Positions 8,785 through 30,586 of a stretch of 64,000 bases of DNA are shown in pieces. The notes under the pieces were generated by a model. The model searched no databases and was not told where the DNA came from. It saw only the letters and a list, made by a program, of their open reading frames with translations. The position numbers were made by a program, and so were the translations under genes. Position 1 is the stretch's first letter. The number at the start of each line of letters is the position of its first letter. Source of the stretch: Prevotella sp. (GTDB lineage Bacteria; Bacteroidota; Bacteroidia; Bacteroidales; Bacteroidaceae); NCBI GenBank assembly GCA_017645645.1, contig JAGCOB010000011.1, positions 57,238-121,237 on the forward strand, in the 5' to 3' direction.

Positions 8785-8801
8785 CGAGAAAAGAAAAAAG
8801 A

Positions 8802-9856: not shown

Positions 9857-9871
9857 AGTAAATACAAAGAA

Positions 9872-10102: not shown

Positions 10103-10106
10103 AAAG

Positions 10107-11186: not shown

Positions 11187-11189
11187 GCG

Positions 11190-12490: not shown

Positions 12491-12524
12491 CTATTTATAT
12501 TATTAATTATTAATAAGGTATAAT

Positions 12525-12560
12525 AAAGGGCATGGGGAATTCTCTTCATGCCCTTTTATT
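12525..12560 (+). terminator. Intrinsic terminator after the oxidoreductase operon
   Basis: AAAGGGCATG (12525-12534) pairs with CATGCCCTTT (12547-12556) across a 12-nt loop, followed by a T-rich run. Confidence 0.8.
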
Positions 12561-12632
12561 GTTTTTATAAGTCTATTTGTTCAATTTACGTATTTTTGTT
12601 GTCATTTTTTCGGTCATATCATTTATTATTTG

Positions 12633-12640
12633 TATATTTG
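12633..12640 (+). promoter_or_regulatory. -7 box for the FadL-type porin gene
   Basis: TATATTTG, 27 bp before the ATG at 12668. The -33 position shows only a T-run (TTTCGG), so activity may depend on other factors. Confidence 0.5.
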
Positions 12641-12667
12641 CAACCGAAAACCATTAAGAAAAGAAAA

Positions 12668-13984: not shown

Positions 13985-14181
13985 TATGTATGTTATTTTT
14001 ACATAAATGCATAAAATATTTCAGAAATTACTCGAATTAATCAAAAAATGCAATTAAAATCGTATTTTTTACACGATTTTCTTGGAACTTATTGTTTTTT
14101 TTATTTACTTTGCACCCGAAATTAAAAAAGAATAGGTAGATTTTTATTTATAAATAATTAATTAAAGTTAGTAAAAAGATT
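13985..14181. other. Intergenic region before the OmpA-family gene
   Basis: AT-rich. It holds a weak hairpin (AAAATCGT 14056-14063 with ACGATTTT 14073-14080), possibly ending the porin transcript. A likely promoter follows: TTGG at 14082-14085 and TTACTTTG at 14105-14112. The A-rich untranslated leader of about 60 nt fits strong expression of the outer-membrane gene. Confidence 0.45.
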
Positions 14182-15306
14182 ATGAAAAAACTTTTTTTAA
14201 TGCTTGCTGTTGCTGCTCTGTCAGCACAGAGTGTATCTGCTCAGACCGTTCTGGAGAGCAAGAATTTTGACAACTGGTATATTGGTATCAATGGTGGTGT
14301 TAATATTCCCGGTGCAGACTTTAAGTTCAAGAACATGAACTATGACGCTGGACTTCGTATTGGTCGTTGGATTACCCCGGTATTAGGTATTGGTGTAGAA
14401 GGACAGGCTTACTTTGGAAAGAAGTATGGTTTTGAATTTATCAAGACTACCGTAAAGGCTACCAATGTTAGCGCTTTCGGTACCATCAACTTCAGCAACT
14501 GGTTTGGTGGCTATCCTGGCACTCCTCGTGTATTTGAGTTGATTGGTGTTGTAGGTCTTGGCTGGTACCACACCTATGATATTAAGACAAATGCAATGAC
14601 TGCTAAGTTGGGTCTTGACTTTGCTTTCAACTTCGGTTCAGACAAGCAGTGGCAGATTTATGCTGAGCCCAACATTCTCTATAACATCGCTCAGAGCTAT
14701 CAGCCCGTACACTTTAACAAGAACCGTTCTCTGATTGGTTTGAACATCGGTGTTAACTACAAGTTCGGTAACAGCAACGGTACTCACAACTTCAAGATTG
14801 CTGAGCTCCGCGACCAGGCTGAGATCGACGCTCTGAACGCTAAGATCAATGAGCTGCGTTCTGATGTTGATTCTAAGAACGGTCAGATCAACGCTGCTAA
14901 CCAGACCATCGCTGACCTGAAGAAGAAGCTCGCTGACTGCGAGGCTCGTCCTACTCAGATTGTTGAGGAGAAGAAGGAGACCACTCTCCAGCCTATCGTT
15001 ATCTTCCGTCAGGGTAAGAGCACTATTGACGCTGCTCAGTATGCAAGTGTTGAGATGGTAGCTAAGTACCTGAAGAATCATCCTGAGTCTAAGGTTCTCG
15101 TTAAGGGTTATGCTTCTCCAGAGGGTCCTGCTGAGCTGAACCAGAAGCTTTCTGAGGCTCGTGCAACTGCAGTTGCTAACGCTCTGATTAAGCGTTACAA
15201 GATCTCTAAGGATCGTATCACCACTCAGGGTCTGGGTGCTACCAGCGAAATCTCTGAGGAGAACGACTTCAACCGTGTTGCTATGTTCGTTGATACTACA
15301 AAGTAA
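14182..15306 (+). CDS. OmpA-family outer-membrane beta-barrel protein
   Basis: Signal peptide (residues 1-20, ending VSAQ), an eight-strand-type barrel region (about 25-195), a helical linker (about 205-250, LNAKINELRSDVDSKNGQI) and a C-terminal OmpA domain (about 265-370). The peptidoglycan-binding part contains VLVKGYASPEGPAELNQKLSEAR and a terminal NRVAMF. It anchors the outer membrane to the wall. Codon use is strongly biased (GCT, GGT, AAG, CGT), as in very highly expressed genes, and a strong terminator follows. Confidence 0.92.
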   Translation: MKKLFLMLAVAALSAQSVSAQTVLESKNFDNWYIGINGGVNIPGADFKFKNMNYDAGLRIGRWITPVLGIGVEGQAYFGKKYGFEFIKTTVKATNVSAFGTINFSNWFGGYPGTPRVFELIGVVGLGWYHTYDIKTNAMTAKLGLDFAFNFGSDKQWQIYAEPNILYNIAQSYQPVHFNKNRSLIGLNIGVNYKFGNSNGTHNFKIAELRDQAEIDALNAKINELRSDVDSKNGQINAANQTIADLKKKLADCEARPTQIVEEKKETTLQPIVIFRQGKSTIDAAQYASVEMVAKYLKNHPESKVLVKGYASPEGPAELNQKLSEARATAVANALIKRYKISKDRITTQGLGATSEISEENDFNRVAMFVDTTK

Positions 15307-15330
15307 TTGACTACAATAGATAAGTATGAG

Positions 15331-15366
15331 AAAAGCCCCGCAGATTTCCTGCGGGGCTTTTTTTTG
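15331..15366 (+). terminator. Strong intrinsic terminator
   Basis: AAAGCCCCGCAG (15332-15343) pairs perfectly with CTGCGGGGCTTT (15349-15360) around ATTTC, followed by a T-run. Confidence 0.95.
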
Positions 15367-15415
15367 TCAAAAACATATAAATTTGTCTCATACTTTTATT
15401 TTTTGTGTATAAAGT

Positions 15416-15447
15416 ATTGTCTGTTATTGGTTTTAATTGTATATTTG
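15416..15447 (+). promoter_or_regulatory. Promoter of the GH115 gene
   Basis: ATTG (15416-15419), 20-bp spacer, TATATTTG (15440-15447), 28 bp before the ATG at 15476. Confidence 0.55.
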
Positions 15448-15475
15448 CATCAATAACAAACAATATAACATATCT

Positions 15476-18004: not shown

Positions 18005-18148
18005 GCCTTGGGGACTTATTTTCTTCAAGATAAATGAAGGAAGAGAAGGATGATTGACGTATATTTGCACCAGATTTTGAATCCCTTGATAAGAGAAAGC
18101 AATAGAATAGGGGGCTTTTTAGGTAAGAAGATTGTTATAAGGAAAAAT

Positions 18149-18181
18149 ACAGGTTTCTCGTGATGAGAGACCTGTTTTTTT
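18149..18181 (+). terminator. Intrinsic terminator
   Basis: ACAGGTTTCTC (18149-18159) pairs with GAGAGACCTGT (18165-18175, one G-U pair), loop GTGAT, then seven T residues. Confidence 0.88.
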
Positions 18182-18198
18182 GATATTTCTTTATTTTA

Positions 18199-18230
18199 TT
18201 TGGTACTTTCAGAATTATTCTTTATATTTG
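18199..18230 (+). promoter_or_regulatory. Promoter of the first caspase-locus transcription unit
   Basis: TTTG (18199-18202), 20-bp spacer, TATATTTG (18223-18230), 29 bp before the ATG at 18260. Confidence 0.75.
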
Positions 18231-18259
18231 CAACGACTAATAACTAAAAAACGAAGAAG

Positions 18260-18931
18260 ATGAAAAAGGTTTTATTATTTGTTGTTGTCTGCCTGATAGC
18301 AGGAACAACCGTAGGATATGCACAGTTAACCAGTGAGCAGATTCAGGCACGTAAGGAGTTAAAGAAGGCTACCAAGGCTGAGTTGAATGAAAAGGCTACT
18401 AAGACAGCCCGTAAGGAGGCTAAGAAGCTGACTAAAGAGGGATGGAAGGTTTCTCCTGGAGCATTGCCCATGGAGAAACAGTTAGACCGTTCTTATATGA
18501 TGGAAATGGAAATAGATGATGATCTATTTCAGAAGTTCATCATTGGTGAGGCCATGAGTTTCGGTAGTGTCTATGATGCGGCAAAGATGCAGGCAACAGA
18601 ACTTGCCAAACAGGCTTTGGCTGGTAAGATTCAGACTGAGGTGACGGCTCTTATTGAGAATACGGTAGCCAACGAACAAGTAGGCAAAGACGTGGCAAAC
18701 TCCCTTGCCAAGTCGATTATGGCGAATAAGAACCTGATTATTCAAAGCATTGGTCGTGTACTTCCTGTTGTGGAACTCTACCGTGAGAAGCCCAATGGCT
18801 ATGAGGTGCTTGTCCGTATTGCCTATAATAGTAAAATGGCAAAGGCTGCAGCCAAAAAGGCGGCAGGCGAGGAACTGGCTAAGCAAGGTGAGGAAGTACA
18901 GAGGAAACTCGACGATATCCTAGGCTGGTAA
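18260..18931 (+). CDS. Secreted helical protein, caspase-locus gene 1
   Basis: Signal peptide (1-21, VGYAQ), then a Lys/Ala/Glu-rich helical stretch and a region reminiscent of bacterial LPP20-like or FlgT-like domains (AKMQATELAKQALAGKIQTEVTALIENT, then VLPVVELYREKPNGYEVLVRIAYNSKMA). The family is not firmly recognised. It lies 3 bp before the DUF4384 gene, which has a related N-terminal half, so the two products probably act together in the periplasm (inference). Confidence 0.7.
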   Translation: MKKVLLFVVVCLIAGTTVGYAQLTSEQIQARKELKKATKAELNEKATKTARKEAKKLTKEGWKVSPGALPMEKQLDRSYMMEMEIDDDLFQKFIIGEAMSFGSVYDAAKMQATELAKQALAGKIQTEVTALIENTVANEQVGKDVANSLAKSIMANKNLIIQSIGRVLPVVELYREKPNGYEVLVRIAYNSKMAKAAAKKAAGEELAKQGEEVQRKLDDILGW

Positions 18932-18934
18932 ACA

Positions 18935-19798
18935 ATGAGACAAGCGGTTATCCTCCTGCTGACACTCTTGACTACTTCCGCTTTTGCCCAAAAGGTGAAG
19001 ACGGTGGAGGGAGAATATACCTACCATGCTCCTGAGAATGTGACCATGGAGCAGGCTCGTCGTACCGCTCTGGACCGTGCCAAGATTCAGGCAATAGCCG
19101 ATGAGTTCGGTACTATCGTGCAACAGACCAATACCACGCGGATTCAGAATACGAACGGAGAGGCGGCAACGGATTTCTATAGCATCGGGGGCAGTGAGGT
19201 GAAAGGAGAATGGCTGGAGACTATCGGCAAGCCCGAGTATACTATTACCTATGAGGATAATATGTTGATTGTCACTTGTAAGGTGAAGGGTAAGGCGCGT
19301 GAGATCGTCTCGGCTCAGATTGACTTCAAGGCTCATGTGCTTCGTAACGGTACAGATGATAAGTTCGAGGATGACGACTTCAAGAGCGGAAACGACCTCT
19401 ACCTGTCGTTTGTCTCACCCGTGAAGGGTTTCCTGGCCGTCTATCTCATTGACGCGGACAACAAGGCATTCTGCCTCCTTCCTTATCGTTCGCAGATGGA
19501 GGGTATCTATCCCATCGAGGCCAACCGCCGCTATGTTTTCTTTGATATCAAGAGTGCCTCGCCAGAGGAACGTGCTATGGTTGACGAGTATGTGATGACG
19601 TGTGAGCGTTCCTCAGAACACAACCTCATCTATATTGTATTCTCTCCCAATCCGTTTGCCAAGGCTGCCGACAGTTCCTCGAACGACCTCCTGCCTCGTG
19701 AGTTATCCTTCGAGGACTTCCAGCAGTGGCTCGTCAAATGCCGCAAGCATGATAAGGAGATGAACCTGCGACGGATACCCATTGAGATTACAAAATAA
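18935..19798 (+). CDS. DUF4384-domain secreted protein, caspase-locus gene 2
   Basis: Signal peptide ending AFAQ, then an N-terminal domain with AENVTMEQARRTALDRAK-like helices (compare FlgT-N/LPP20 domains). The C-terminal DUF4384-like beta domain includes LYLSFVSPVKGFLAVYLID, FCLLPYRSQ and the terminal NLIYIVFSPNPF. DUF4384 is found elsewhere fused or linked to caspase-fold (peptidase C14) proteins, which fits the neighbours here. The domain assignment is from motif memory, not a search. Confidence 0.7.
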   Translation: MRQAVILLLTLLTTSAFAQKVKTVEGEYTYHAPENVTMEQARRTALDRAKIQAIADEFGTIVQQTNTTRIQNTNGEAATDFYSIGGSEVKGEWLETIGKPEYTITYEDNMLIVTCKVKGKAREIVSAQIDFKAHVLRNGTDDKFEDDDFKSGNDLYLSFVSPVKGFLAVYLIDADNKAFCLLPYRSQMEGIYPIEANRRYVFFDIKSASPEERAMVDEYVMTCERSSEHNLIYIVFSPNPFAKAADSSSNDLLPRELSFEDFQQWLVKCRKHDKEMNLRRIPIEITK

Positions 19799-19828
19799 AT
19801 ATAAGATATTATTTACTAAAAACCAAAT

Positions 19829-20878
19829 ATGATGAAAAAACTACTATTCTTTTTTGCAGTCCTTTGCATGATAGCATTGGATGCAAGTGCCGGTGGAACT
19901 AAGACCGATTACCGCAATGCGTTGATTCTTGCTTACTCACAGGCAAACAGTGTCTATGAAGATGACAACATCAAGTTGGAGATTTATAACGAGCAGTTGT
20001 GGGCTACCAATAAGACCAAGAAGACCATATTCATCGACAAGGCCCAATGTTTCGTCTTCCATAATGGCCAGGCAAAACCTATGTTCGACTCTGAGCAGAA
20101 CAAGCAAGGTGATGATAAAAAAGCCTCCAAGAAGGGTAAGAGCACCAAGGAGGACGAGTACATCACTGTTGCTCCCAATATCGGTGCTAAGCAGAATGAG
20201 ACATACATCTACAATATGTCGACATCACTTTACAAGAAATATACTACCACAGAGACTACCGACGACGACTTCACGGAGTATGACAAGCGACTGCTTTCTA
20301 TCGTCGAGGAATTGGTGACTGAGTCATTGGAGGGTGACCCAAAGGGCAAGGAGTATAAAGGAACGGTTGTACGTCATTTGACAGAGGATGAGAGTATCAA
20401 CAACATTGGAGCATCTGTAGCCTATGCCTTCAACAAAAAGGCCGAGGATTGGACGAATGTTTCGATGTCCACATGGGTAAGCGATGTTATTTTTGCTCCT
20501 TTTTACGTAGAGATGCCAACCGACCTGAAAAAGAAAGATAAGAAGGGCTTCGGAATCAAAGAGACGACACCGGCAATCATCCATCTCAGAGCCAATAGTC
20601 CCTTTGAGTTTGACGAGGACAAATCGCCTATCATCGTGTGTGACTGGGAGGGTAATTATAAAAAAGGTACCTTTACACTGAATCACACCTGGATATCGAA
20701 GAAAAAGGGTAGTTTCCTTGGCAAGTTCGTAGGTGGTCTGTTTACTTTTGGAGCGTTGTGGTATACGCCTTTCTCCGAGAATGCCTATAAGAAGATTATC
20801 CATTTCGACGGTGCTACCGCAGACTGGGGAAAGCTTAATTATGTCAGCGACATCATGAATACCGGACAAGACGACTGA
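19829..20878 (+). CDS. Secreted protein of unknown function, caspase-locus gene 3
   Basis: Two adjacent ATG codons (19829, 19832); signal peptide ending DASAG. The mature part starts with a beta-rich domain (IKLEIYNEQLWATNKTKKTI), a Lys-rich loop (KKASKKGKSTKEDE), and a C-terminal glycine-rich hydrophobic stretch (SFLGKFVGGLFTFGALWY) that could touch the membrane. No family recognised. Its stop codon overlaps the next start by 1 bp (TGATG), so translation is probably coupled to the caspase gene. Confidence 0.7.
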   Translation: MMKKLLFFFAVLCMIALDASAGGTKTDYRNALILAYSQANSVYEDDNIKLEIYNEQLWATNKTKKTIFIDKAQCFVFHNGQAKPMFDSEQNKQGDDKKASKKGKSTKEDEYITVAPNIGAKQNETYIYNMSTSLYKKYTTTETTDDDFTEYDKRLLSIVEELVTESLEGDPKGKEYKGTVVRHLTEDESINNIGASVAYAFNKKAEDWTNVSMSTWVSDVIFAPFYVEMPTDLKKKDKKGFGIKETTPAIIHLRANSPFEFDEDKSPIIVCDWEGNYKKGTFTLNHTWISKKKGSFLGKFVGGLFTFGALWYTPFSENAYKKIIHFDGATADWGKLNYVSDIMNTGQDD

Positions 20879-22236
20879 TGCGAACATTACTGACGATAGT
20901 GATTTGTTTTTGTTGCCTTCACGGACATAGTGTGACGGTCGACAAACGCACCTCAGAAGCTCTGGGGTTTATCAAGCAGGGCTATATACAATATGGGTTT
21001 GAAGAGCTGAAGAAATCAGCTGCCACCAATGATCTGGCCGCTCAGTATTATCTGGCTGTCTGCTATCAATATGGTATCGGGACCGAGAAAAGCGATTCCG
21101 ATGCCTTTAAGATGTATCGCAAGGCGGCAGAGCGCGGACTTCCTGATGCCATGTACCATATTGCTGCTTTCTACAGAGATGGCATTGCTGTGCCGCAGGA
21201 CACTGCACGTGAGAAGGAGTGGTTGCAGCGCTATAGCAAGAAGGGGGGACAATTCCTGCTCACCGACCTTATACCTATCTATAACGAAGGTGTGAAGTAT
21301 TCGCAGAACTATGCCCTGAACCCCACGGGAAGCAGTGGCACTCCTGCCAACCAGGTGGCTCAGAATACAGTCCAGCAGCCTCAGGTCATCGTACAGGCAC
21401 AACCCATTGCTGTCACTCAGCCTCAGACTGCCAATAAGCCTGCTCAGCAGACAAAGAAGTCAGATGTCGACCAGAACATTCCTACAGGCAAACTGATGCG
21501 TACACATACTTTTGCCCTTATCATTGCTAATGAGAACTATATGGAAGTTGCCAATGTTCCTAATGCATTGAATGATGGTCAGGTCTTTAAAGAATATTGT
21601 CAAAAGACACTCGGCATACCAGAAAGCAATATCCGTTATATACCTGATGCAACACTGAATCGCATGAAGAGGCAGTTGAGCTGGATTACTCAGGTGATGG
21701 AGGCCTATAAGGGTGACGCCAACATCATCTTCTACTATGCTGGTCACGGCATCCCTGACGAGAGTAACCAATCGTCTTACCTGTTACCTGTCGACGGCTA
21801 CGGCTCTGATATAACGACGGGATACAGCCTTGATGAAATCTATCAAATGCTAGGAGAAAAGAAAGCTAAGTCTGTTGTCGTTTTACTTGATGCCTGCTTT
21901 AGCGGTGCCAATCGTGATGGAGCTATGCTAGCTTCGGCCCGTGGTGTGGCTATTAAAGCCAAACAGAGTGCACCTAAAGGCAAGATGGTCATTCTCTCGG
22001 CAGCGCAAGGTGATGAGACAGCCTATCCATACAAAGAGAAAAATCATGGAATGTTTACCTATTATCTGCTGAAGAAACTGAGGGATACAAAAGGCGATGT
22101 GACTTTCGGCGAATTGGCCGACTATGTCACCAGTGAGGTGATGAAGCAGAGTGTCGTCACTAATGGCAAGATGCAGACTCCTCAGGCTATTCCTTCTGAC
22201 AAGGCAGAGGACTGGAAGAAATGGAATTTTAAATAA
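20878..22236 (+). CDS. Sel1-repeat / caspase-like protease (peptidase C14), caspase-locus gene 4
   Basis: Signal peptide (about 1-18), two Sel1-like repeats (AAQYYLAVCYQYGIGTEKSD; DAMYHIAAFYRDGIAVPQD), a Gln/Pro-rich linker (about 140-200), and a C-terminal caspase fold (about 215-430). The catalytic His290 is in YYAGHGIPD and Cys340 in LLDACFSGANRDG; SAAQGDETAYPY forms the S1-side loop. Both residues of the dyad are present, so activity is expected. Substrates are unknown. Predicted location is periplasmic or surface, unlike typical cytoplasmic defence caspases. Confidence 0.88.
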   Translation: MRTLLTIVICFCCLHGHSVTVDKRTSEALGFIKQGYIQYGFEELKKSAATNDLAAQYYLAVCYQYGIGTEKSDSDAFKMYRKAAERGLPDAMYHIAAFYRDGIAVPQDTAREKEWLQRYSKKGGQFLLTDLIPIYNEGVKYSQNYALNPTGSSGTPANQVAQNTVQQPQVIVQAQPIAVTQPQTANKPAQQTKKSDVDQNIPTGKLMRTHTFALIIANENYMEVANVPNALNDGQVFKEYCQKTLGIPESNIRYIPDATLNRMKRQLSWITQVMEAYKGDANIIFYYAGHGIPDESNQSSYLLPVDGYGSDITTGYSLDEIYQMLGEKKAKSVVVLLDACFSGANRDGAMLASARGVAIKAKQSAPKGKMVILSAAQGDETAYPYKEKNHGMFTYYLLKKLRDTKGDVTFGELADYVTSEVMKQSVVTNGKMQTPQAIPSDKAEDWKKWNFK

Positions 22237-22240
22237 GTGT

Positions 22241-22714
22241 ATGCTGACGCCTCTGAGAATGCTCCTGCTGCTCATCATGATGGGTTTTACTACGATGGCA
22301 GTCGCGCAGGATGTCAATCTAGATAGCCTGTATGGGGAGTATGTGACAGAGGACGTGAGAAAGCAACTGGATAAGTTCAAGGAACTGGAAATACAACTGC
22401 AACAGCAGGAACAGGAGCGTGAAAAGAAGAAGACGGTATGGTATCTGATCTTGGCAGGGTGTGCAGTCAGTGCCGCCTTTGTCACGGGAGGTATCTTCCG
22501 TGCTGTATTCAAGGGACAGGAGGGTGCACCGCTCCGTAATAAGCTCTCTGCAGGAGCCATCTGTCTGTGTGGCGGCATCGTCATCTTCCTGCTTGATGTC
22601 GTTTGGTTCTACATGTCCTTTGAGGCCAACCAGAAAGTACAGAAGCTGATTCTCTTTGCCATTCTCCTCGTCTTAGGTATCGCCTTGTGGATTTACACGA
22701 AAAGACAAAAGTGA
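22241..22714 (+). CDS. Small membrane protein with coiled coil, caspase-locus gene 5
   Basis: Starts 4 bp after the caspase gene. Signal peptide (MLTPLRMLLLLIMM...AVAQ), a short helix likely to form a coiled coil (KFKELEIQLQQQEQEREKKK), then three hydrophobic segments (VWYLILAGCAVSAAFVTGG; LSAGAICLCGGIVIFLLDVV; LILFAILLVLGIALWIY). No family recognised. It closes the first transcription unit. Confidence 0.65.
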   Translation: MLTPLRMLLLLIMMGFTTMAVAQDVNLDSLYGEYVTEDVRKQLDKFKELEIQLQQQEQEREKKKTVWYLILAGCAVSAAFVTGGIFRAVFKGQEGAPLRNKLSAGAICLCGGIVIFLLDVVWFYMSFEANQKVQKLILFAILLVLGIALWIYTKRQK

Positions 22715-22738
22715 CCTGATATTATGAATAATTCTGAC

Positions 22739-22773
22739 AAAGTGCCTCAAATTTAGGGGCACTTTTCGTTTTT
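22739..22773 (+). terminator. Intrinsic terminator of the first caspase-locus unit
   Basis: AAAGTGCC (22739-22746) pairs with GGCACTTT (22758-22765), followed by a T-rich tract. Confidence 0.75.
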
Positions 22774-22872
22774 GTTTGCTGCTGGACGCAAATGAGCGAA
22801 ATATAGGATATTTTGGTAAACAACTCATACATAGAGAGTTATCGTTTTGAGAGTGGTATAACTCGAAGGATA

Positions 22873-22911
22873 AGGGGCAAAAACGGTTAAAAAACCACCG
22901 TTTTTGCCCCT
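22873..22911. repeat. Perfect 14-bp inverted repeat
   Basis: AGGGGCAAAAACGG pairs with CCGTTTTTGCCCCT across an 11-nt loop, followed by GTTTTTGC. It could be a second terminator or part of a structured RNA. Confidence 0.8.
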
Positions 22912-22964
22912 GTTTTTGCATAGAAAGGTGCCTCCTTTCGGGTCTTTTGAAGGCACCAAACGGG

Positions 22965-23051
22965 TAGAAAGGAGCCTTCAAACTCCTCGTTAGGTGCGTC
23001 CAAACTCATTTTTTGCTCAAAACAAGCGTCTTGAAGGCTCCTAACTTTCTA
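22965..23051. repeat. Long-range inverted repeat (17 bp with a bulge)
   Basis: TAGAAAG+GAGCCTTCAA (22965-22981) pairs with TTGAAGGCTC (23031-23040), a CTAA bulge, and CTTTCTA (23045-23051). The enclosed loop is 49 nt and repeats related words (AGGTGCGTCCAAACTC compared with GGAGCCTTCAAACTC). Confidence 0.75.
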
Positions 23052-23145
23052 GATGCTCCTAAAATCCGAACAAAATTTCTACCAAACTTCTTGACATTTT
23101 GTGTTTATGCCACTCTGTAGCCATAAAAAAAATAATCCCCAATCT

Positions 23146-23176
23146 TTTGCTAATATCACTTTTTTCATTATATTTG
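23146..23176 (+). promoter_or_regulatory. Promoter of the second caspase-locus transcription unit
   Basis: TTTG (23146-23149), exactly 19-bp spacer, TATATTTG (23169-23176), 21 bp before the ATG at 23198. Confidence 0.8.
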
Positions 23177-23197
23177 CAGGGTATAATATATTATGAT

Positions 23198-24067
23198 ATG
23201 AGGAAAACAAGACTATTATTACTGATGACTTTATTGATTGTCGCAACGACAGTGATGGGACAGAATGATGCCAATGCCAGACGGCAGGTGGCAAGAAAGC
23301 GTGGTGCTAGTGTCACCCGACAGACGACTCAACAGCCTGTTCAGCAACCGGTGCAGGCACAACAGCCGCAGGCGACAGTGCCTACAACCCCTCCGGCACC
23401 GAGTAATATTAAGAATCAAGGACAGTACGACCAGTATATCGAGGCAGCCAAGAAAGGGGATGCTGCCGCAGAACTGAAAGTCGCCCAGAGTCACCAATTC
23501 CCGTCAGAAGGATATTTCTATTGGCTGAAGCGTTCGGCAGAACATGGTGATCATCGTGCTCAAAACGTGCTTGCCTACTGTTATTCCGAAGGACAGGGTA
23601 TAGCGCAAAACAAGAAGCTGGCTTTTGACTGGTGGTTGAAGTCTGCAGAACAGGGCAATGCTCTCTCACAGGGTGCTGTAGGAGCCTACTATTTGAATGG
23701 GGTAGTTGTTCCGAAGAATGAAGAGAAAGCATACTATTGGTATCAGAAAGGAGCAGCACAGAATGATGTCCACAGCCTGGTCATGATGGGGTTTGCCTAC
23801 GAGGGAAAGGGCATTATCCCGGAAGACCCCGTCAAATCCTTTGAATGCTTCAAGAAGGCTGCCGAGTTAGGCAGTGACATGGCAGAACCTCAGGTGGCTT
23901 TCCGCTATTTCTACGGCGACGGTGTGGCACAGGACTACGGACAGGCTGCCTATTGGTTTGAAAAGTGTATTGCCCGTGGTGGCGACCCTGAGGATATCCA
24001 GTACTGGAAGGAATTTCTGGATAAAGCAAAGATGCGACAGCAGATTAAAGATAAGCAGAAGAAATGA
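23198..24067 (+). CDS. Sel1-repeat secreted protein, caspase-locus gene 6
   Basis: The start at 23198 is chosen because it follows the promoter and gives a signal peptide (RKTRLLLLMTLLIVATTVMGQ). A Gln/Pro-rich low-complexity segment (about 35-70) precedes at least four Sel1-like repeats (for example AQNVLAYCYSEGQGIAQNKK, GAVGAYYLNGVVVPKNEEKA, MMGFAYEGKGIIPEDPVKSF, QVAFRYFYGDGVAQDYGQAA). Sel1 repeats are alpha-solenoid protein-binding scaffolds, and the repeats resemble those on the gene-4 caspase. It overlaps the next gene by 4 bp. Confidence 0.82.
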   Translation: MRKTRLLLLMTLLIVATTVMGQNDANARRQVARKRGASVTRQTTQQPVQQPVQAQQPQATVPTTPPAPSNIKNQGQYDQYIEAAKKGDAAAELKVAQSHQFPSEGYFYWLKRSAEHGDHRAQNVLAYCYSEGQGIAQNKKLAFDWWLKSAEQGNALSQGAVGAYYLNGVVVPKNEEKAYYWYQKGAAQNDVHSLVMMGFAYEGKGIIPEDPVKSFECFKKAAELGSDMAEPQVAFRYFYGDGVAQDYGQAAYWFEKCIARGGDPEDIQYWKEFLDKAKMRQQIKDKQKK

Positions 24068-26115
24068 GATACAGGACAATCATACTTGCCGTGTTGCTGA
24101 CTGTTGCAGGCATCGCCTCAGGACAAACGAGACGGCGTGTCGCAACGCAACGGACTACAACCACTACGCAACAGAGACAACAGACACCACAGCCACAGCA
24201 GTCTTCCGATGACGAGTGGAAACTGCTGTATGACGACCTGCGCAAGTGTCGTGCCTCCAACCACTATATGGTCCTCAACGGTCCGTATATCGGACTGTGT
24301 GCCTCGGACGGTGAGGAGATTATCAAGCCTGGAATATATGACGGTGTCATCGACTGCAACAGGTCTGAGTATATGTTGCTGCTGAAGAATGACCTGTGGG
24401 GACTCTACGACCTGAAACAACGCAAGGAGGTTATCCCCTGCAAGTACGAGAAAGACGGTGTTCAGGTGTATGATTTGTACAAGGAAGACTATGAAGGTCA
24501 TTTTGCAGAGACACCCGTTCGTGATATCTGTGTGGTGAGCAGGGATGGTAAGAGGGGAATCTATGATGTCAGACAAGGACGTGAGATAGTGCCTTGCGGC
24601 TATTTCGGAGCGGATGTGATGAAAGTGGTTGACGACATGTACCTCGTATGGAACCTGCCGACAGGCAAGGATGTCGCAGAGGGTTCTACGTCACTGCCCT
24701 ATGAAGGTATCTATGATGCACGTCAGCAGAAGCAGCTCACTCCGCTGAAATACGGTATGATATACCTTGACGATTTTGAGAAACAAGACTACTGCCGGGT
24801 ACTGAGCAACCGCGATCCTACTATTCAGCATGAAGAGGGAATTGGAATTGTTGACAGAGAGGGGCGTGAACTGTTGGAGCCGAAGTATACCACACTGATA
24901 CGGTTGGACTTCCTCAATGACAAAAGTTCTATTTTCATCGTGGGTGAGGGAGGACAGCGCAGTGGTGACTTTGGTGATAATTACAGCGAACTCGTCAGTG
25001 ACCGCTATGCCCTCTATGATGTGAAGAAGAAAGCTTTCCTGACAGGTTTTGACTACAAGCGCATCAACCCGTTGAAGGAGGGCATCGTGATATGGGAGGG
25101 GACGCAACTTACAGACTCCAGCAGTCTGGAAGGACTGACCTCTTTCTGTACCAAGGATGACCAGTGGGGCTATATGGACGTAAATGGTAAGATTGTCGTA
25201 CCAGCCCAGTATGAGGCGGTGACGGAATTCGAGGGCGGTGTGGCACAGGTGACCAAGAACGGTGTGACCTCCATGCTCGCCAATCCCTTGAAAGGTACTG
25301 TATTGACGATTGCCAAGGGAACAGAGTCGGGCAAGAACATCGACAGTAACATCCCAGAGACAGGCAGGAAGGACGAGAACCTGTTTGCCTTTGTCTTTGC
25401 TAATGAGAACTATGCCAACCTGAAAGGTGCCGACTATGCCATCAATGACGGAAAGGTGTTCTATGAGTATTGCAGAAAGACACTCGGTATGGTTCCTGAC
25501 AAACAGCTCCATTTCTACGAGGATGCCACCTATGGTAATATGGCGAGTGCCGTCAATACCATCAAGAATGTGGCAACAGTCTTTGACGGAGAGGCGAAGA
25601 TCATCTTCTATTTCGCAGGACTGGGGGCTACAGACAGCAAAACCAAGGAGCGTTACCTGTTGTTGGCCGACGGCTCCTTGCAGACTCTCGGGACGACAGG
25701 CTATAGTGTGACGGAATTGCAGAACACGCTCAATAGTCTGAATACCGTTTATACGCTGGTCATCATTGATGCTCCCTTCTCAAATACGGACCGTAACGGT
25801 AATATGTTGGCAGAGTCGCGTGGTGTACAGATAGCACCGAAGAAAATCCCTGTACAGGGAAAGACCATCTTCTGTGTCAGCAGTACGGACAACGAGACGG
25901 CATATGCCAGCAAGAACTACGGGCACGGACTGTTCACTTTCGGCATCCTGCAGCAACTGCAACAGACGAAAGGGGAGGGGACGTTGAAGGAACTGATAGA
26001 CAATGCCTCGGAATGGACGAAGAAGGAATCGATGAGTGAGTTTAAGCAGGCGCAGACTCCACAGCAGACGGTTTCTATGGAGATGGAAGAGCGATGGCAG
26101 CAATTTAAATTCTGA
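24064..26115 (+). CDS. WG-repeat protein with catalytically degenerate caspase fold, caspase-locus gene 7
   Basis: Signal peptide ending ASGQ, then a series of WG-type beta repeats (WGLYDLKQRKEVIPCKYE, RGIYDVRQGREIVPCGYF, WGYMDVNGKIVVPAQYEAV), then a caspase-like domain (about 440-660) closely matching those of genes 4 and 8. At the two catalytic positions the His is replaced (FYFAGLGATD, Leu520) and the Cys is replaced (IIDAPFSNTDRNG, Pro571). The rest of the fold is kept (NYANLKGADYAINDGKVFYEYC, GHGLFTFGIL). This is therefore most likely a pseudoprotease, perhaps a regulator, decoy or binding partner of the active paralogues. Confidence 0.85.
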   Translation: MRYRTIILAVLLTVAGIASGQTRRRVATQRTTTTTQQRQQTPQPQQSSDDEWKLLYDDLRKCRASNHYMVLNGPYIGLCASDGEEIIKPGIYDGVIDCNRSEYMLLLKNDLWGLYDLKQRKEVIPCKYEKDGVQVYDLYKEDYEGHFAETPVRDICVVSRDGKRGIYDVRQGREIVPCGYFGADVMKVVDDMYLVWNLPTGKDVAEGSTSLPYEGIYDARQQKQLTPLKYGMIYLDDFEKQDYCRVLSNRDPTIQHEEGIGIVDREGRELLEPKYTTLIRLDFLNDKSSIFIVGEGGQRSGDFGDNYSELVSDRYALYDVKKKAFLTGFDYKRINPLKEGIVIWEGTQLTDSSSLEGLTSFCTKDDQWGYMDVNGKIVVPAQYEAVTEFEGGVAQVTKNGVTSMLANPLKGTVLTIAKGTESGKNIDSNIPETGRKDENLFAFVFANENYANLKGADYAINDGKVFYEYCRKTLGMVPDKQLHFYEDATYGNMASAVNTIKNVATVFDGEAKIIFYFAGLGATDSKTKERYLLLADGSLQTLGTTGYSVTELQNTLNSLNTVYTLVIIDAPFSNTDRNGNMLAESRGVQIAPKKIPVQGKTIFCVSSTDNETAYASKNYGHGLFTFGILQQLQQTKGEGTLKELIDNASEWTKKESMSEFKQAQTPQQTVSMEMEERWQQFKF

Positions 26116-26120
26116 ATACG

Positions 26121-27758
26121 ATGAGAAGAATCCTGTTGATATTCCTGTTGGCTGGTGTCTTCCAAGGTTGTCTTGCACAGATAGACTGGTTCGAGGAAGA
26201 CGACAACGGCAAGTTCGGTTTTGTGGATGCTAATCGCAGATGGGTCGTGCAACCCGTCTATGAGGGTGCCAGTTGGAACTCATGGGCTCATGTCGGTACC
26301 TTCGTCGTCAACAGGACTGACCCGACAGTAGGAGCCATCAACCAGAAAGGCGAAGTGATTATCCCGCAGGGGAAATACGATGCGATAGACATTGTGAACT
26401 ATCATTACCAGCGGAACGTAGGACCCTTCTATCTGAAACTGCATGAACTGAACGGCAAGTACGGACTGGCTGACGTGGAGGGAAAAATCATCGTACCCTG
26501 CCGCTATGACAAGATAGATATCAAGGAACAGGGTGTACTTGCCGAGGAGAACGGTGGAAACAGGAGTGTATGGTCTTATGAGGGAAAGGAACTGGCAAAA
26601 AGCAATAGTCTTACTTTCCTCTTGGAAGAGAAATTCATCAAGACGAGGAAGGGGGAGAAGATCTTTGGTGCCTATTCCTATGAGGGTGAACAGGTAGTGC
26701 CTTGTGAGTATGAGGATGTGAAATGGGCTGCCGATGACATCTATATCGTCAAGAAGGACGGGAAGTACGGATACTATGCCCAAGGACGTGAGGTCATACC
26801 CTGTATTTACGACAGTGTCAAACCCTTCGTCAACGATGTGGCTACGATTAAGAAAGACGGTGAGGTGCGGATGCTGAAGAATCCGTTGAAGGATGCCGCG
26901 CAGATATTGACGGACGACAACCTGTTGGCAAACAGGAAGAAGGGCGGTCCTGTACTGAGCCGCTATCCGCCTCCTGACTCTGATGTCGACAAGGATATCC
27001 CTGTAGCGAAAGGAAAACAGGAGAAAGTCTTTGCCTTCATCATCGCCAACGAGAACTATCCCAAGGCTCCAGTACCATATGCATTGAATGACGGACGGAT
27101 ATTCCGGGAGTACTGTATCCAGACACTGGGACTGCCGAAAGATCATGTCAACATCTATGAGGATGCCACCTTTGGCAATATTATCCAGGCTGTGGAGAAG
27201 ATGAAGTCCATCGCTGATGCCTACGACGGTGAGGCGAGTGTCATCTTCTATTACGCAGGACACGGTCTCCCTGACGAGAAACAGTCTACAGCCTATTTAT
27301 TGCCGATAGACGGAAATGTCTCTGATATCACTACGACAGGTTATAGTCTGGCAAAACTCTATAAGGAACTGTCTGTATTGAAACTGAAATCATCTTTGGT
27401 ATTCCTCGATGCCTGCTTCAGTGGGGCGAAACGTGAGGATGACATGCTTGCCACGGGTCGTGGTGTCGCCATCAAGGTCAAGGAGACAGCTCCTCAAGGT
27501 AAGATGATTGTCTTTACTGCTGCACAGGGTGACGAGACCGCCCATCAGTTGGAGGAGAAACATCACGGTATGTTTACCTATTTCCTGCTGAAAGAGTTAC
27601 AGGCAACAGGAGGTGACGTGGATTTAGGAACACTGACGGACTATGTGACGAAACAGGTGAGACGACAGTCGGTGATAATCAATAACAAGATGCAGACACC
27701 CACCGTCATTCCCTCACAGGCATTGGTGAATGACTGGAAACAAATGAAACTGAAATGA
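26121..27758 (+). CDS. WG-repeat / caspase-like protease (peptidase C14), caspase-locus gene 8
   Basis: Signal peptide (MRRILLIFLLAGVFQGCLAQ), then WG-type repeats (FGFVDANRRWVVQPVYEG, YGLADVEGKIIVPCRYDKI, YGYYAQGREVIPCIYDSV), then a caspase fold (about 305-540). His381 (FYYAGHGLPDE) and Cys432 (LDACFSGAKRED) are intact, with TAAQGDETAH after them. Domain order is the same as gene 7, so the pair looks like a tandem duplication in which one copy lost the catalytic dyad. Probably active and exported; substrate unknown. Confidence 0.88.
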   Translation: MRRILLIFLLAGVFQGCLAQIDWFEEDDNGKFGFVDANRRWVVQPVYEGASWNSWAHVGTFVVNRTDPTVGAINQKGEVIIPQGKYDAIDIVNYHYQRNVGPFYLKLHELNGKYGLADVEGKIIVPCRYDKIDIKEQGVLAEENGGNRSVWSYEGKELAKSNSLTFLLEEKFIKTRKGEKIFGAYSYEGEQVVPCEYEDVKWAADDIYIVKKDGKYGYYAQGREVIPCIYDSVKPFVNDVATIKKDGEVRMLKNPLKDAAQILTDDNLLANRKKGGPVLSRYPPPDSDVDKDIPVAKGKQEKVFAFIIANENYPKAPVPYALNDGRIFREYCIQTLGLPKDHVNIYEDATFGNIIQAVEKMKSIADAYDGEASVIFYYAGHGLPDEKQSTAYLLPIDGNVSDITTTGYSLAKLYKELSVLKLKSSLVFLDACFSGAKREDDMLATGRGVAIKVKETAPQGKMIVFTAAQGDETAHQLEEKHHGMFTYFLLKELQATGGDVDLGTLTDYVTKQVRRQSVIINNKMQTPTVIPSQALVNDWKQMKLK

Positions 27759-28903
27759 AAGCATTCGTTCGACATATTATCATCACTATACTGGCATTCG
27801 TGCTGGTAGCGACCTTCGCGCTGATAGCCTATAACATCCCGTTTATGGGACCTATTGCGGAGGCTATCAAGGAGTTTGAGATGACGGATGTGTACTGTCA
27901 GATCCTGCAGGACACGAATGAAGACGACGAAGAGGTGAGTGATGTCATTACTATTGTGGATATGTCGGAACTCTATAACCGTAGGGATTTGGCTAAGGCA
28001 CTGCAGGATATCGAGGCACAACAGCCGAGGGTGATAGGCGTGGATGTCGTGTTTGAGGGACTGAAAGAGGACTCCATTGGGGATGAGATGATGGCGGAGG
28101 TGGCATTGTCGAACGATAATATCGTGTTCTCCTACAAACTCTTGGACTATGTCAACGACTCTGTCGGTCATGAGACAACGGTACATTCTTTCTTTGCTAA
28201 TGAGGAAGGAGCGGTGAATGAAGGTTTTACCAATATGCCTCGTAATCTGTATGGTGGTATCAAACGGAAGCTGAGTCTGGGTGAAAGAGCGGAAGGAAAG
28301 GTGGTTCCTTCCTTTATCACGGTGACAGCCGATATGTATGCGGGGAAAGAGACGGATGCCGTCACGCAGAGTCAGGTAAATATCAATTTCATTCCTCGAC
28401 GCTATAGGGTCGTGCAGCCTGATTCTATCGCCCTTCATCCGGAATGGATCAAAGACAAACTGGTACTCTTCGGAGCGATGAAAGACGAATATGACATGCA
28501 CTATACCCCCTTGGGAAAGATGGCGGGAACGGAACTGCTTGCCTATTCGATAGAGACGTTGTTAAAGAAGAGTGAGATAAAAGAGGTGAACGGATGGTTG
28601 ATGGCTGTCATCACCTTCCTACTGGTACTGTTGACGCAAGTCGTATTCGGTGTCTATATGGAATTTGCCAAGAAACGGAAGAACAGGGTATTGCGCTTCC
28701 TGATGTCAGCCTCCTTTATGCGAGGCTATCTGATGTTCTTCTGGATCGCTGTCTGGATGTGGATTGCTTTTATCCTCTTCTATCAGTTCGACATCTCCTT
28801 GAATATGGGATGGGCGTTGTCGGCAATGGCATTCCTGGTTCTTGCCCAGAGTATTTATGATGAGTTTATAGTCGCAATAAAAGATAAGAAGGATGGTCAA
28901 TAA
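27755..28903 (+). CDS. CHASE2-domain membrane protein without an output domain, caspase-locus gene 9
   Basis: N-terminal membrane anchor (about 7-29), an extracytoplasmic CHASE2-type sensor domain (about 35-280; VITIVDMSELYNRRDLAKALQ, PRVIGVDVVFEG, FINFIPRR-like, KDKLVLFGAM...MAGTELLAYSIETLL). Three C-terminal transmembrane helices follow (about 284-305, 322-345, 350-370) and a 12-residue tail. CHASE2 proteins usually continue into a kinase or cyclase; here nothing follows, so the signal must pass to another protein. It overlaps gene 8 by 4 bp and gene 10 by 11 bp. Confidence 0.82.
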   Translation: MKAFVRHIIITILAFVLVATFALIAYNIPFMGPIAEAIKEFEMTDVYCQILQDTNEDDEEVSDVITIVDMSELYNRRDLAKALQDIEAQQPRVIGVDVVFEGLKEDSIGDEMMAEVALSNDNIVFSYKLLDYVNDSVGHETTVHSFFANEEGAVNEGFTNMPRNLYGGIKRKLSLGERAEGKVVPSFITVTADMYAGKETDAVTQSQVNINFIPRRYRVVQPDSIALHPEWIKDKLVLFGAMKDEYDMHYTPLGKMAGTELLAYSIETLLKKSEIKEVNGWLMAVITFLLVLLTQVVFGVYMEFAKKRKNRVLRFLMSASFMRGYLMFFWIAVWMWIAFILFYQFDISLNMGWALSAMAFLVLAQSIYDEFIVAIKDKKDGQ

Positions 28904-30521
28904 AATTGTAATCATACTATTTGCCCTGCTGGTGGTGGGTGCAAATGGAGAAGTCATGGCACAGCAGAAAAAGAAGTCTGTATCGAAAGTGTCAAAGCAG
29001 TATGCCAAGTATGTCAAAGACAAAGCTCAGGGCAAGGAGAAACTTGCCCAGAAGAGGTCGAGTGACCCTGCCACTGTAACCCGTGAGAAGAATGACACGA
29101 TAATCACGGAAGAGCCGCAGGATCCGATGCGTGCTGCCTATGAGTCGTTCAAGCAACAGGCGAAGACAGATTATGAGAACTTCCGTGACAAGGCTAATCG
29201 GGATTATGCGGAGTTCGTCAAAGAAGCATGGAAACAGTTCAATGCCATGCCTGCTGTTCCCCAACCTGTGGAGGAAGAAATTCCCCCTGTTGTTATCAAG
29301 GAAGAGGACTTGAAGAAACCTGTAGAGGACAAACCCCTGCCGATAGAGGAGGAGATAGTGACACTGCCGGCACCCGAGCCACAACCGGTACCTGTAGCCC
29401 CTATTAAGGAACAGCCTGTGACGGTGGAAAAGACAGTCTCTTTTATGGTCTATGGTACAAATCTGAAAGTACGGTTTACAGATGACCAGCGTTTTACACT
29501 GAAGGATTGTAGTGAGAATACCATCTCGGACGCATGGAAGAAGTTGTCAGGCAAGGCCTATAACAATACTATCAGGGACTGTCTGGAGTTGCGTATCACC
29601 AAGAAACTCAGTGATTGGGCTTATCTGAATATGTTATATCAGTTTGCGAAAGCCTGTGTGGGCAATGGCAATGAGGCAGTCTTGCTGGCCGCCTATATTT
29701 ATTGTCAGTCAGGATACAGGATGAGACTGGGAACAAAGAATGGTGAACTGTATCTGCTTTATGCCTCAGAGCATGTCATCTTTAACCGTTCCTATTATGT
29801 AGTAGGGAGTGAGTACTATTATGTGTTCAACAGTGATGAGGTAAGTATGAAACTCTGTGATGTCGCCTTCCCGAAGGAACAGTCGATGTCATTATATATC
29901 CCTCAGGATCAGCAGTTTGACTATGTGTCATCGGAGGAACGTCATCTAAAATCCAAGAGGTATCCAGACATGGATATCACGTCACATGTCAACAAGAATC
30001 TCATCGCCTTCTGTAATGAGTATCCGTCATCATCCATCTGGGATAATGTGATGACACGCTGGGCTATGTTGGCGAATATGCCAATGGAAAAGGAGGTACA
30101 GGATAATATGTATCCTCAGTTACGTGAAAAGATCAAGGGATTAAGTGAGAAGGAGGCGATGGAGAGGCTGCTCAACTGGGTACAGACATCACTGGTTTAT
30201 GAATATGATGACAAGGTATGGGGACATGACCGTGCCTTCTTTGCCGAGGAGTCGCTGTTCTATCCTTATGCTGACTGTGAGGACCGTTCGATATTGATTT
30301 CCCGTCTGGTCCGTGACTTGTTGGGCTTGAAGACTATCTTGATCTATTATCCTGGTCATCTCGCCATGGCTGTCGGCTTTACGGAAGACGTGAAAGGTGA
30401 TTATATCCTGCTTAATGGTCATAAATTTGTGGTCTGTGATCCTACGTATATTGGTGCCCGTGTTGGAGAGACGATGCCCAAGATGGATAATGCGACGGCA
30501 AAGGTCATCTTGTTGGAATAA
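28893..30521 (+). CDS. Secreted transglutaminase-like cysteine peptidase, caspase-locus gene 10
   Basis: Signal peptide (VNKIVIILFALLVVGANGEVMAQ), a Lys/Glu-rich helical region, a Pro/Glu-rich linker (about 125-180), an unassigned middle domain, and a C-terminal transglutaminase-like fold. The Cys-His-Asp triad is visible as Cys462 (PYADCEDRSILIS), His489 (YYPGHLAMAVGF) and Asp516 (VVCDPTYIGA). Such folds cleave or cross-link proteins or peptidoglycan peptides. Its start lies inside gene 9 (11-bp overlap), so co-expression is very likely. Confidence 0.8.
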   Translation: MVNKIVIILFALLVVGANGEVMAQQKKKSVSKVSKQYAKYVKDKAQGKEKLAQKRSSDPATVTREKNDTIITEEPQDPMRAAYESFKQQAKTDYENFRDKANRDYAEFVKEAWKQFNAMPAVPQPVEEEIPPVVIKEEDLKKPVEDKPLPIEEEIVTLPAPEPQPVPVAPIKEQPVTVEKTVSFMVYGTNLKVRFTDDQRFTLKDCSENTISDAWKKLSGKAYNNTIRDCLELRITKKLSDWAYLNMLYQFAKACVGNGNEAVLLAAYIYCQSGYRMRLGTKNGELYLLYASEHVIFNRSYYVVGSEYYYVFNSDEVSMKLCDVAFPKEQSMSLYIPQDQQFDYVSSEERHLKSKRYPDMDITSHVNKNLIAFCNEYPSSSIWDNVMTRWAMLANMPMEKEVQDNMYPQLREKIKGLSEKEAMERLLNWVQTSLVYEYDDKVWGHDRAFFAEESLFYPYADCEDRSILISRLVRDLLGLKTILIYYPGHLAMAVGFTEDVKGDYILLNGHKFVVCDPTYIGARVGETMPKMDNATAKVILLE

Positions 30522-30556
30522 AATCGTAAGGATTCTCTTGTTTTAAGTTACGAATT

Positions 30557-30586
30557 AAAAGCAGATACGAAAAATATCTGCTTTTT
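30557..30586 (+). terminator. Intrinsic terminator of the second caspase-locus unit
   Basis: AAAAGCAGATA (30557-30567) pairs with TATCTGCTTTT (30575-30585) around CGAAAAA. Confidence 0.85.

Follow-up and report, generated by a model that had tools for sequence, protein, structure and literature searches.

The window analysed here is a 64,000-nt stretch of Prevotella sp. DNA (GCA_017645645.1, contig JAGCOB010000011.1, positions 57,238–121,237 of the forward strand), and its source genome assembly comprises 29 contigs and is 64% complete. Ten co-directional open reading frames, g01 to g10, are all present at positions 18260..30521 of the plus strand, on which all features given below also lie, and are separated from g01 to g10 by +3, +30, −1, +4, +483, −4, +5, −4 and −11 bp; the overlaps of 1, 4, 4 and 11 bp described in a sequence-only reading of this DNA are correct, because these measured gaps agree with them. 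That reading had also placed promoters at 18199 and 23146, and exact matches to a Bacteroidota-type promoter pattern (TTTG-N-TANNTTTG) begin at precisely these positions (18199..18230 for unit 1 and 23146..23176 for unit 2). The form TTTG-N18..23-TANNTTTG, which we take to be the Bacteroidota-type consensus and whose spacing range was picked after the sequence had been read, matches seven times in the whole window against 0.72 matches expected, a number reached in 0 of 100 shuffles. Of the two terminators proposed earlier, the intrinsic-terminator-like hairpin at the end of unit 1 (22739..22765) was reported by a terminator scanner, and the hairpin with a T run at the end of unit 2 (30557..30586) is recognizable by eye but absent from the scanner list. 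A hydrophobic N-terminus was found by hydropathy in all ten proteins, which thus look exported or membrane-bound, in line with the earlier statement that nearly all parts carry signal peptides.

The same ten genes occur in the same order in Prevotella sp. tf2-5. The DNA match between this genome and the window spans 18249–30521 (89%) and ends there, covering only the block, and the flanks of the window match two other contigs of tf2-5, so that the block has sharp ends in two genomes. Such a three-way junction could in principle arise from an assembly chimera; both joints of the block are intergenic and its limits recur in tf2-5, which counts against this. As regards mobile carriage, a search of 72,556 plasmid records with g09 gave no match, and a search of phage records with g10 gave one (33%), to MT839828.1, a 4-kb unannotated “phage” record that was taken for stray bacterial DNA and rejected as evidence of phage carriage.

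Three of the encoded proteins contain a Peptidase_C14 (caspase) domain above the Pfam cut-off, namely g04 (20878..22236; 4.8e-24), g07 (24064..26115; 2.4e-12) and g08 (26121..27758; 2.3e-21), all predicted to be exported. The motifs YYAGHG and DACFSG, which carry the catalytic His/Cys dyad, are present in both g04 and g08, and the corresponding motifs in g07 are YFAGLG and DAPFSN, with L and P at the catalytic positions; the assignment of two caspases with an intact dyad and one without it therefore stands. From these motifs, g04 and g08 are putative proteases with intact active sites, and g07 is a pseudocaspase that is also present in two relatives (dN 0.021 and dS 0.134 against the L056 copy). 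Pfam further identified Sel1 repeats in g04 and in g06 (23198..24067, predicted exported), and WG repeats in g07 and g08. The NCBIfam model for the EACC1-associated caspase (NF047832) gave 80.4, 41.4 and 72.8 bits, all below its cut-off of 140. The generic caspase model of PADLOC matched g04 (8.6e-13) and g08 (2e-13), and at E≤0.1 the only other PADLOC match among the ten proteins was PtuA against g06 (E 0.056), with no defence gene set. A search of solved structures with the g08 sequence returned nothing meaningful. The predicted exported protein g03 (19829..20878) is of unknown family and was found only in L056 and L060 among 72 fetched loci, and clear orthologues of g03, g05 and g06 each occur at two of these loci. 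The small protein g05 (22241..22714) has an N-terminal hydrophobic segment and three further ones and matches no family above cut-off; its assignment to the Cyanobacterial TRADD-N-associated 2TM family was rejected (19.5 bits, cut-off 24.3).

The remaining exported proteins could be assigned to varying degrees. The 223-residue product of g01 (18260..18931), predicted exported and of no known family, is a frequent neighbour of g10 in relatives; its identification as an LPP20 lipoprotein was rejected, with 0 of 30 g01/c10 sequences matching at E≤0.05. Separately, a neighbouring c4 protein scored 23.8 bits against LPP20 (cut-off 25.9). The C-terminal half of g02 (18935..19798, predicted exported) is DUF4384-like: the match of the single protein is weaker than the earlier reading implied and lies below cut-off (19.5 bits against 27, E 0.001), but when its aligned family is scanned, 13 of 15 sequences, counting g02 itself, hit DUF4384 at E≤0.01 (best 1.4e-7). 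Similarly, g10 (28893..30521, predicted exported) can be called transglutaminase-like (TG-like) on account of its C462/H489/D516 triad, which is conserved in order among 56 aligned TG proteins including g10 (C in 56, H in 56, D in 52 and E in 4), but it falls below the Transglut_core cut-off (15.7 bits against 23, E 0.018), again a weaker match than implied earlier; at E≤0.1 the profile matched 5 of 14 members, g10 included (best 7.6e-4). Alignments of g01 and g10 searched by sequence against solved structures gave nothing meaningful.

The central component is g09 (27755..28903), a CHASE2 protein (75.6 bits against a cut-off of 26.3, 6e-21; Pfam) that is predicted to be an inner-membrane receptor. 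Its hydrophobic segments lie at residues 1–35, 275–293, 323–345 and 357–375, the 382-residue chain continues for just 7 residues beyond the last of them, and no Pfam family other than CHASE2 matched at E≤1; the observation that it has no cytoplasmic output domain is thus borne out. What the earlier gene list missed is a partner of the sensor: the output-less CHASE2 protein is one half of a pair, which is completed by c5, a small protein predicted to be exported. Directly downstream of CHASE2, c5 is found free, fused to a TG domain or as a remnant within one at 31 of 35 family loci, and a c5 homologue is adjacent to or fused with CHASE2 at 17 of 25 fetched output-less loci elsewhere in the phylum; the other eight show no detectable c5, and it is beside CHASE2 at neither of the two fetched phylum loci with long ORFs. 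Of the counted loci, 19 supplied sequences for the c5 model, and the detections at L098–L100, L104 and L105, in the fused cases and in the phylum set are independent of its construction. In the window, c5 persists as a remnant near the N-terminus of g10 (28962..29114; residues 24–74 against model positions 91–142; 35.4 bits, i-Evalue 5.5e-12 in a 10-sequence database), and a positional alignment agrees. Fusions of three kinds, CHASE2-c5 in one protein (L177), c5-TG (L061, L089, L112 and L114; 70–119 bits) and a predicted exported c5-C14-outer-membrane-barrel protein (L173), support a functional link among these parts. Despite a likeness by eye, the identification of c5 as FecR was rejected, since 0 of 17 members match PF04773 at E≤0.1 (Pfam) and hhalign gave a probability of 1% against ten PF04773 places (one row mis-framed, one partial). 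A single acquisition of the TG enzyme, which held in a tree of 47 of the 64 CHASE2 ORFs that left out L112 and L114, is no longer claimed, because these two loci make two changes in a tree of 59 of the 64 (two near-copies, one ORF cut by a contig end and two long ORFs left out), a tree that itself carries a long-branch warning.

The gene neighbourhoods of relatives show that the components are linked rather than scattered, as proposed, but not that they form a fixed ten-gene system: all ten occur together at one of the 72 fetched loci (tf2-5), several of the loci being cut by contig ends. The genes g01/g02, CHASE2 and TG-like g10 recur, and the caspases vary. Of the 27 places with g01, 26 have g02, g10 or a C14 gene on the same strand no more than 12 kb away, and g01 and g10 co-occur across 151 genomes (Fisher p = 9.5e-12, uncorrected for relatedness). 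This linkage count leaves aside the 13 shortest entries for g10 (twelve N-terminal pieces of counted genes and one separate fragment in G021), and its C14 list misses g07; of the 89 places with C14 genes, 57 are without a same-strand g01, g02 or g10 in a 12-kb range. CHASE2 is less common than TG, with g09 homologues in 17 and g10 homologues in 46 of the 151 genomes. Also overlooked earlier was a CHAT protease that replaces the TG-like enzyme in other loci, the order CHASE2-c5-CHAT being found at 11 of the 35 family loci. Outside the family, a same-strand C14 gene lies near CHASE2 in L168, L169, L173, L193 and, weakly, L188, and a CHAT gene in L174; the link to effectors there depends on few loci, because 19 of the 25 distant loci show no clear C14, CHAT or TG gene and 6 show one within the approximately 7–13 kb fetched.

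With a probability that we put at roughly 0.45, the block encodes an extracytoplasmic, outward-acting receptor-effector module of the envelope. This model, which we infer from the parts, their linkage and fusions, the conserved catalytic residues and the missing output domain, would place g09 in the inner membrane with its sensory domain facing the periplasm; since it has essentially no cytoplasmic part, it would most likely act outward, through c5, on enzymes in its own compartment. In this Prevotella lineage, c5 would have been reduced and fused into the TG-like effector g10, and further effectors and scaffolds would have been added, namely the caspases g04 and g08, the pseudocaspase g07, the Sel1/WG scaffolds and the DUF4384 and g01 proteins. 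A signal from the periplasm or the cell surface would alter the contact between CHASE2 and c5(g10), and this might free or recruit the TG-like enzyme and the caspases, which could then cut or cross-link envelope proteins, with g07 serving as a partner or regulator of an active caspase. The sensor-protease relay suggested by the sequence-only reading accordingly gains the linkage, the output-less CHASE2 protein and the apparent export; the relay itself is compatible with these.

The nearest competitor, which we consider unlikely but well worth weighing, is constitutive maturation of surface proteins, in which the caspases and the TG-like enzyme would process or cross-link surface proteins encoded nearby and CHASE2 would be a structural anchor. 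Gingipains, which also have a caspase fold, mature Porphyromonas fimbriae. In keeping with such a role, nearby genes in relatives encode outer-membrane barrels (c11), PEGA-plus-barrel proteins (c8), one representative of each having been scanned, and PARCEL-repeat surface proteins (two scanned), and one caspase is itself fused to an outer-membrane barrel. However, the block in the window contains no obvious surface-protein substrate gene, the neighbours differ from locus to locus, and the passages of the literature at hand treat CHASE2 as a sensory domain. It is less probable again that genes of separate functions were merely gathered in a mobile or rearranging block. The restriction of the full set to tf2-5 and the window, the rarity of g03, g05 and g06, the split order of the same genes in L060 and the frequent location of C14 genes elsewhere would fit such an accessory cluster, whereas the overlapping genes, the repeated co-linkage of g01/g02/g09/g10 across genera and the three kinds of c5 fusion argue against it. 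Control of an ECF sigma factor, with the enzymes cleaving an anti-sigma factor as the site-1 step of envelope stress signalling, seems improbable for this block. A small, predicted exported caspase, an ECF sigma factor, an anti-sigma-like gene and g01 or c10 follow one another in L075, L081, L085, L086 and L088, and these genes stand in a different order in L073 (the membrane anti-sigma-like gene of related TG loci being recognized by eye, with no family match); in L080 two TG genes flank an ECF factor, and in L180 an ECF-like gene (1e-4) comes less than 100 bp after CHASE2-CHASE2-c5. Against this, the block has neither a sigma nor an anti-sigma gene, and among CHASE2 loci ECF matches occur only in L180 and, 6 kb away, in L097. 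Least probable is a role in conflict or defence, with caspase effectors killing the cell itself or its competitors; in its favour, the generic PADLOC caspase matches and the inclusion of caspases as effectors in bacterial conflict systems, in the portion of that study available (PMC8195603), are outweighed by the apparent export of the proteins and by the weakness of the PtuA match and of the best EACC1 score.

No description of the gene set was found in searches of an open-access library, consistent with the suggestion that it is undescribed, and the following comparisons extend to the parts of each source that were available. The Burkholderia “BiofilmReg” operon likewise places an exported-partner gene, encoding a FecR/LysM periplasmic protein, beside CHASE2 membrane receptor genes, but its CHASE2 forms one protein with a histidine kinase that has a response regulator (PMC5192318); the present receptor has no cytoplasmic output, c5 does not match FecR, and exported enzymes take the place of the kinase output. 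In Sinorhizobium, the outer-membrane barrel NsrA is encoded upstream of CHASE2 adenylate cyclases and works with them, but the output is cytoplasmic cAMP and the text available describes no exported protease (PMC13001267). Both cases are precedents for CHASE2 proteins with partners in the envelope. Against the proposed module, Sinorhizobium SMc02177, a FecR-domain protein regulated by this pathway, is dispensable for signal perception (PMC5498481), so a protein that is exported and encoded nearby does not necessarily take part in sensing. Caspases are coupled to CHASE2 in the Trichodesmium caspase-CHASE2 fusion and in EACC2-caspase-CHASE2 proteins (PMC3501461, PMC2853523, PMC8195603); these are single proteins, and the Trichodesmium caspase is predicted to lie on the cytoplasmic side (PMC3501461), whereas the caspases of the block are separate and apparently exported to the receptor’s own side. 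For prokaryotic metacaspases, multi-caspase operons in Bacteroidetes have been described, as have OmpA and sigma factors among the operon neighbours, but the sections seen of that survey mention neither a pairing of CHASE2 with an adaptor nor a TG-like enzyme or a block of ten genes (PMC3501461).

CHASE2 receptors have been described as answering inside the cell, and bacterial caspases mostly as effectors of death or conflict; here, receptor and caspases alike seem to be extracytoplasmic, the receptor has no inner signalling route, and its pairing with the adaptor is coupled to three different enzyme types, depending on the lineage. As a more tentative generalization, which we regard as doubtful at present, output-less CHASE2 proteins across the phylum may form a class that gates exchangeable exported caspases, CHAT proteases or TG-like enzymes through a conserved c5; a transmembrane sensor would then govern a cascade of caspases in the periplasm or at the surface, with a pseudocaspase as regulator. 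The c5-caspase-barrel, c5-TG and CHASE2-c5 fusions provide specific candidate proteins and, if the reading as a receptor-effector module is true, both the role of exported caspases in gut and rumen Bacteroidota and the working of output-less CHASE2 proteins would become testable.

The source genome of the window (2.09 Mb in 29 contigs, 64% complete) was taken to belong to a close relative of Prevotella sp. strain tf2-5, because the ilv stretch adjoining the block shares 96% DNA identity with that strain and all 13 loci with g09 matches in named genomes came from Prevotella or Prevotellaceae. Positions 18260–30521 are occupied by ten same-direction genes (g01–g10) in two units, and the promoters and overlaps described in the sequence-only reading were borne out when the window sequence was rechecked. 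Its domain assignments also held, although DUF4384 in g02 and the transglutaminase-like (TG) domain in g10 fall under the Pfam cut-offs; the former is backed by homologues, and the latter by homologues and a conserved C/H/D triad. In g07, a WG-repeat protein, the caspase dyad is lost. Its counterpart in L056, the tf2-5 locus, carries both altered motifs in identical form, and L057 encodes one protein with SGLG/DAPFSN and a second that has AGLG but in which a Cys motif cannot be recognised. The dN/dS between g07 and its L056 counterpart is ~0.16 (dN 0.021, dS 0.134), a value at which this pseudocaspase looks maintained rather than decaying.

Comparison of the window with the 21-kb L056 locus by blastn gave a single match, at 18249–30521 (89%), and none outside that interval. 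Downstream of the block, the window (from 30571) matches at 96% a tf2-5 contig different from that carrying the block, and the upstream stretch (3149–18187) matches a third tf2-5 contig in eight pieces of 76–95%. The sharp ends of the match and the location of the flanks on other contigs thus suggest that the ten genes stay together while their chromosomal place differs between the window and tf2-5. The promoter regions immediately outside the block are, by eye, unlike between the two genomes. The window joints at 18187–18249 and 30521–30571 connect three stretches corresponding to three tf2-5 contigs, and reflect either movement of the block or a chimeric assembly. The gene preceding the block (15437–18004), a putative GH115-type glycoside hydrolase, is matched at E ≤0.001 in 18 of the 30 genus-level genomes compared. 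A 374-aa protein of the neighbour-gene cluster c12 is encoded 3 kb upstream of the block (14182–15306); c12 directly adjoins CHASE2 in L092, L093, L096–L098 and L106, and its placement in the window is perhaps due to chance.

Among 151 family genomes, homologues of g10, g09, g01 and g02 were identified in 46, 17, 24 and 23, respectively, and Pfam C14 (caspase) in 49. When linkage was defined as another of g01, g02, g10 or C14 lying no more than 12 kb away in the same orientation, a linked member accompanied 26 of 27 g01 places (g10 specifically near 23 of them), 23/28 g02 places and 31/66 g10 places, and g01, g02 or g10 lay near 32 of 89 C14 places; these counts are lowered by contig ends in draft genomes. 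Co-occurrence across the 151 genomes, uncorrected for relatedness, gave Fisher p = 9.5e-12 for g01 with g10 and p = 7e-4 for C14 with g10. A g01-like, c10, c9 or LPP20-like c4 gene was present in 52/54 fetched TG loci, a descriptive count, the clusters having been defined on the same loci. The genes first proposed as a ten-gene system form a real and linked block; all ten were found together only in L056 among the 72 fetched loci. In L060 (8446–20563), block genes occur in split order, with g01-g02-g09-g10 first, followed by an opposite-strand caspase fragment, g02 fragments, g03, g04, g05 and two more caspases. A compact version in L083 (genome G052) and L084 (G029) combines g01 and g02 with a tandem TG pair, a gene of the outer-membrane-barrel type and a large caspase, with no CHASE2 within the fetched stretch. 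A g10 relative (33%) is encoded at 427–1881 of MT839828.1, a human faecal record of 4 kb titled 'Bacteriophage sp.' that is probably bacterial DNA inside a phage collection.

The second half of the CHASE2 sensor would be c5, a small exported-looking protein of ~160 aa. The 35 family CHASE2 loci counted comprise the window, 13 named loci (L056–L068), and L089–L107, L112 and L114 from the family search; several are near-copies, and the counts are not of independent events. Free c5 lies next to CHASE2 in 23/35, and c5-TG, or TG with a c5 remnant, in 8/35; in the others, CHASE2 is followed by a C14 gene and then c5 (L100), c5-TG lies elsewhere in the same gene run and the CHASE2 matches are weak, at 32 and 39 bits (L112 and L114), or a contig end cuts the locus (L106). 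The gene order is g01, CHASE2, c5, TG in L062–L068, and CHASE2, c5, CHAT-type protease in L091–L099, L104 and L105, a C14-like ORF preceding CHAT in L095. The one CHAT protein scanned (1131 aa) contains TPRs, a CHAT domain (E 2.3e-52) and, by eye, a hydrophobic N-terminus. The TG proteins of L061, L089, L112 and L114 carry c5 as an N-terminal fusion; in the window, g10 residues 24–74 match the final part of c5 with 35.4 bits and an i-Evalue of 5.5e-12 for a ten-sequence database, and the stretch SDPATVTRE is common to both.

All 14 TG-linked rows group as a single clade (100/99) in a 47-protein CHASE2 tree; the clade's position amid same-family rows linked to CHAT has support of 92/83, short of the tool's threshold. 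A 59-protein tree including L112 and L114, for which the tool warned of possible misplacement of the long rows added, requires two changes for TG, five for CHAT and five for C14; in 90 of 500 shuffles, C14 was clustered at least as strongly. The simplest reading of these trees would be a CHASE2-c5 pair with a changing enzyme partner, having acquired TG once or twice and caspases several times.

Across the phylum, CHASE2 profile matches were found in 98 of 296 genomes, and most CHASE2 places among the matches listed are ORFs of ~700–940 aa, the length expected for receptors with output domains. The 27 places fetched were chosen, mostly as best-scoring short ORFs, and comprise 25 output-less loci (a CHASE2-c5 fusion included) and two long-ORF loci. 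In 17/25 output-less loci, CHASE2 adjoins or is fused to a c5 homologue matched at E ≤1e-3; at this threshold none was found in the other eight (L171, L175, L178, L187, L188, L191–L193) or in either long-ORF locus. A C14, CHAT or TG effector is shown by 6/25: same-strand C14 in L168, L169, L173 and L193 and, weakly (2e-5), in L188, and CHAT in L174. Only a small fragment of C14 occurs in L171, and the stretches fetched for the remaining output-less loci show no clear C14, CHAT or TG. Fusions include CHASE2-c5 in L177 (CHASE2 4.8e-23) and an exported-looking c5-C14-outer-membrane-barrel protein in L173 (C14 2.8e-16, barrel 2.4e-6). In L168 (2509–3870), the protein encoded between c5 and the C14 gene belongs to the papain family (Peptidase_C1 2.7e-13) and also matches DUF4384 below the cut-off, and thus a third protease type may join the module.

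Regulatory and surface-protein genes also occur at these loci. Beside TG in L075, L081, L085, L086 and L088 lies an ordered run of an exported-looking small caspase, an ECF sigma factor, a membrane anti-sigma-like gene (by eye) and a g01- or c10-like gene; L073 has these genes in another order, and L080 has an ECF factor between two TG genes. The two tested ECF proteins, both of cluster c18, matched NCBIfam sigma70-ECF at 3.4e-9 and 4.9e-6, under the cut-off. In L180 (4133–8525), a tandem CHASE2 pair and c5 are followed by an ECF-like gene (1e-4), which may connect the CHASE2-c5 pair to gene regulation. Large surface-type proteins are encoded upstream of g01-CHASE2-c5-TG in L063 and L065–L068, with PARCEL repeats (TIGR02167) in both tested (3e-105 and 1.3e-38; L065 and L068), and PEGA-type genes lie still further upstream in L063, L065, L066 and L068.

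The CHASE2 protein g09 is predicted to place its sensory domain outside, and about 7 residues follow its last hydrophobic segment, which would leave a classical inward signal without a carrier. Together with the export-type appearance of c5, c5-TG and the caspases, this is the basis for proposing outward gating, in which exported enzymes would be held or freed through CHASE2-c5 contact. Periplasmic or outer-membrane partners of CHASE2 are known, in those cases with inward output (PMC5192318, PMC13001267). Other reports describe caspase and CHASE2 coupled within one protein (PMC3501461, PMC8195603, PMC2853523), the caspase of the Trichodesmium protein being predicted on the cytoplasmic side (PMC3501461). 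In a Sinorhizobium pathway, a FecR-domain protein was not needed for perception (PMC5498481), which counts against a general partner role. Searches of an open-access library found no description of the block; it is best seen as a variant of CHASE2 receptors, and the ten-gene set represents a locally elaborated form of a CHASE2-c5 theme that is simpler and widespread and whose enzymes change.
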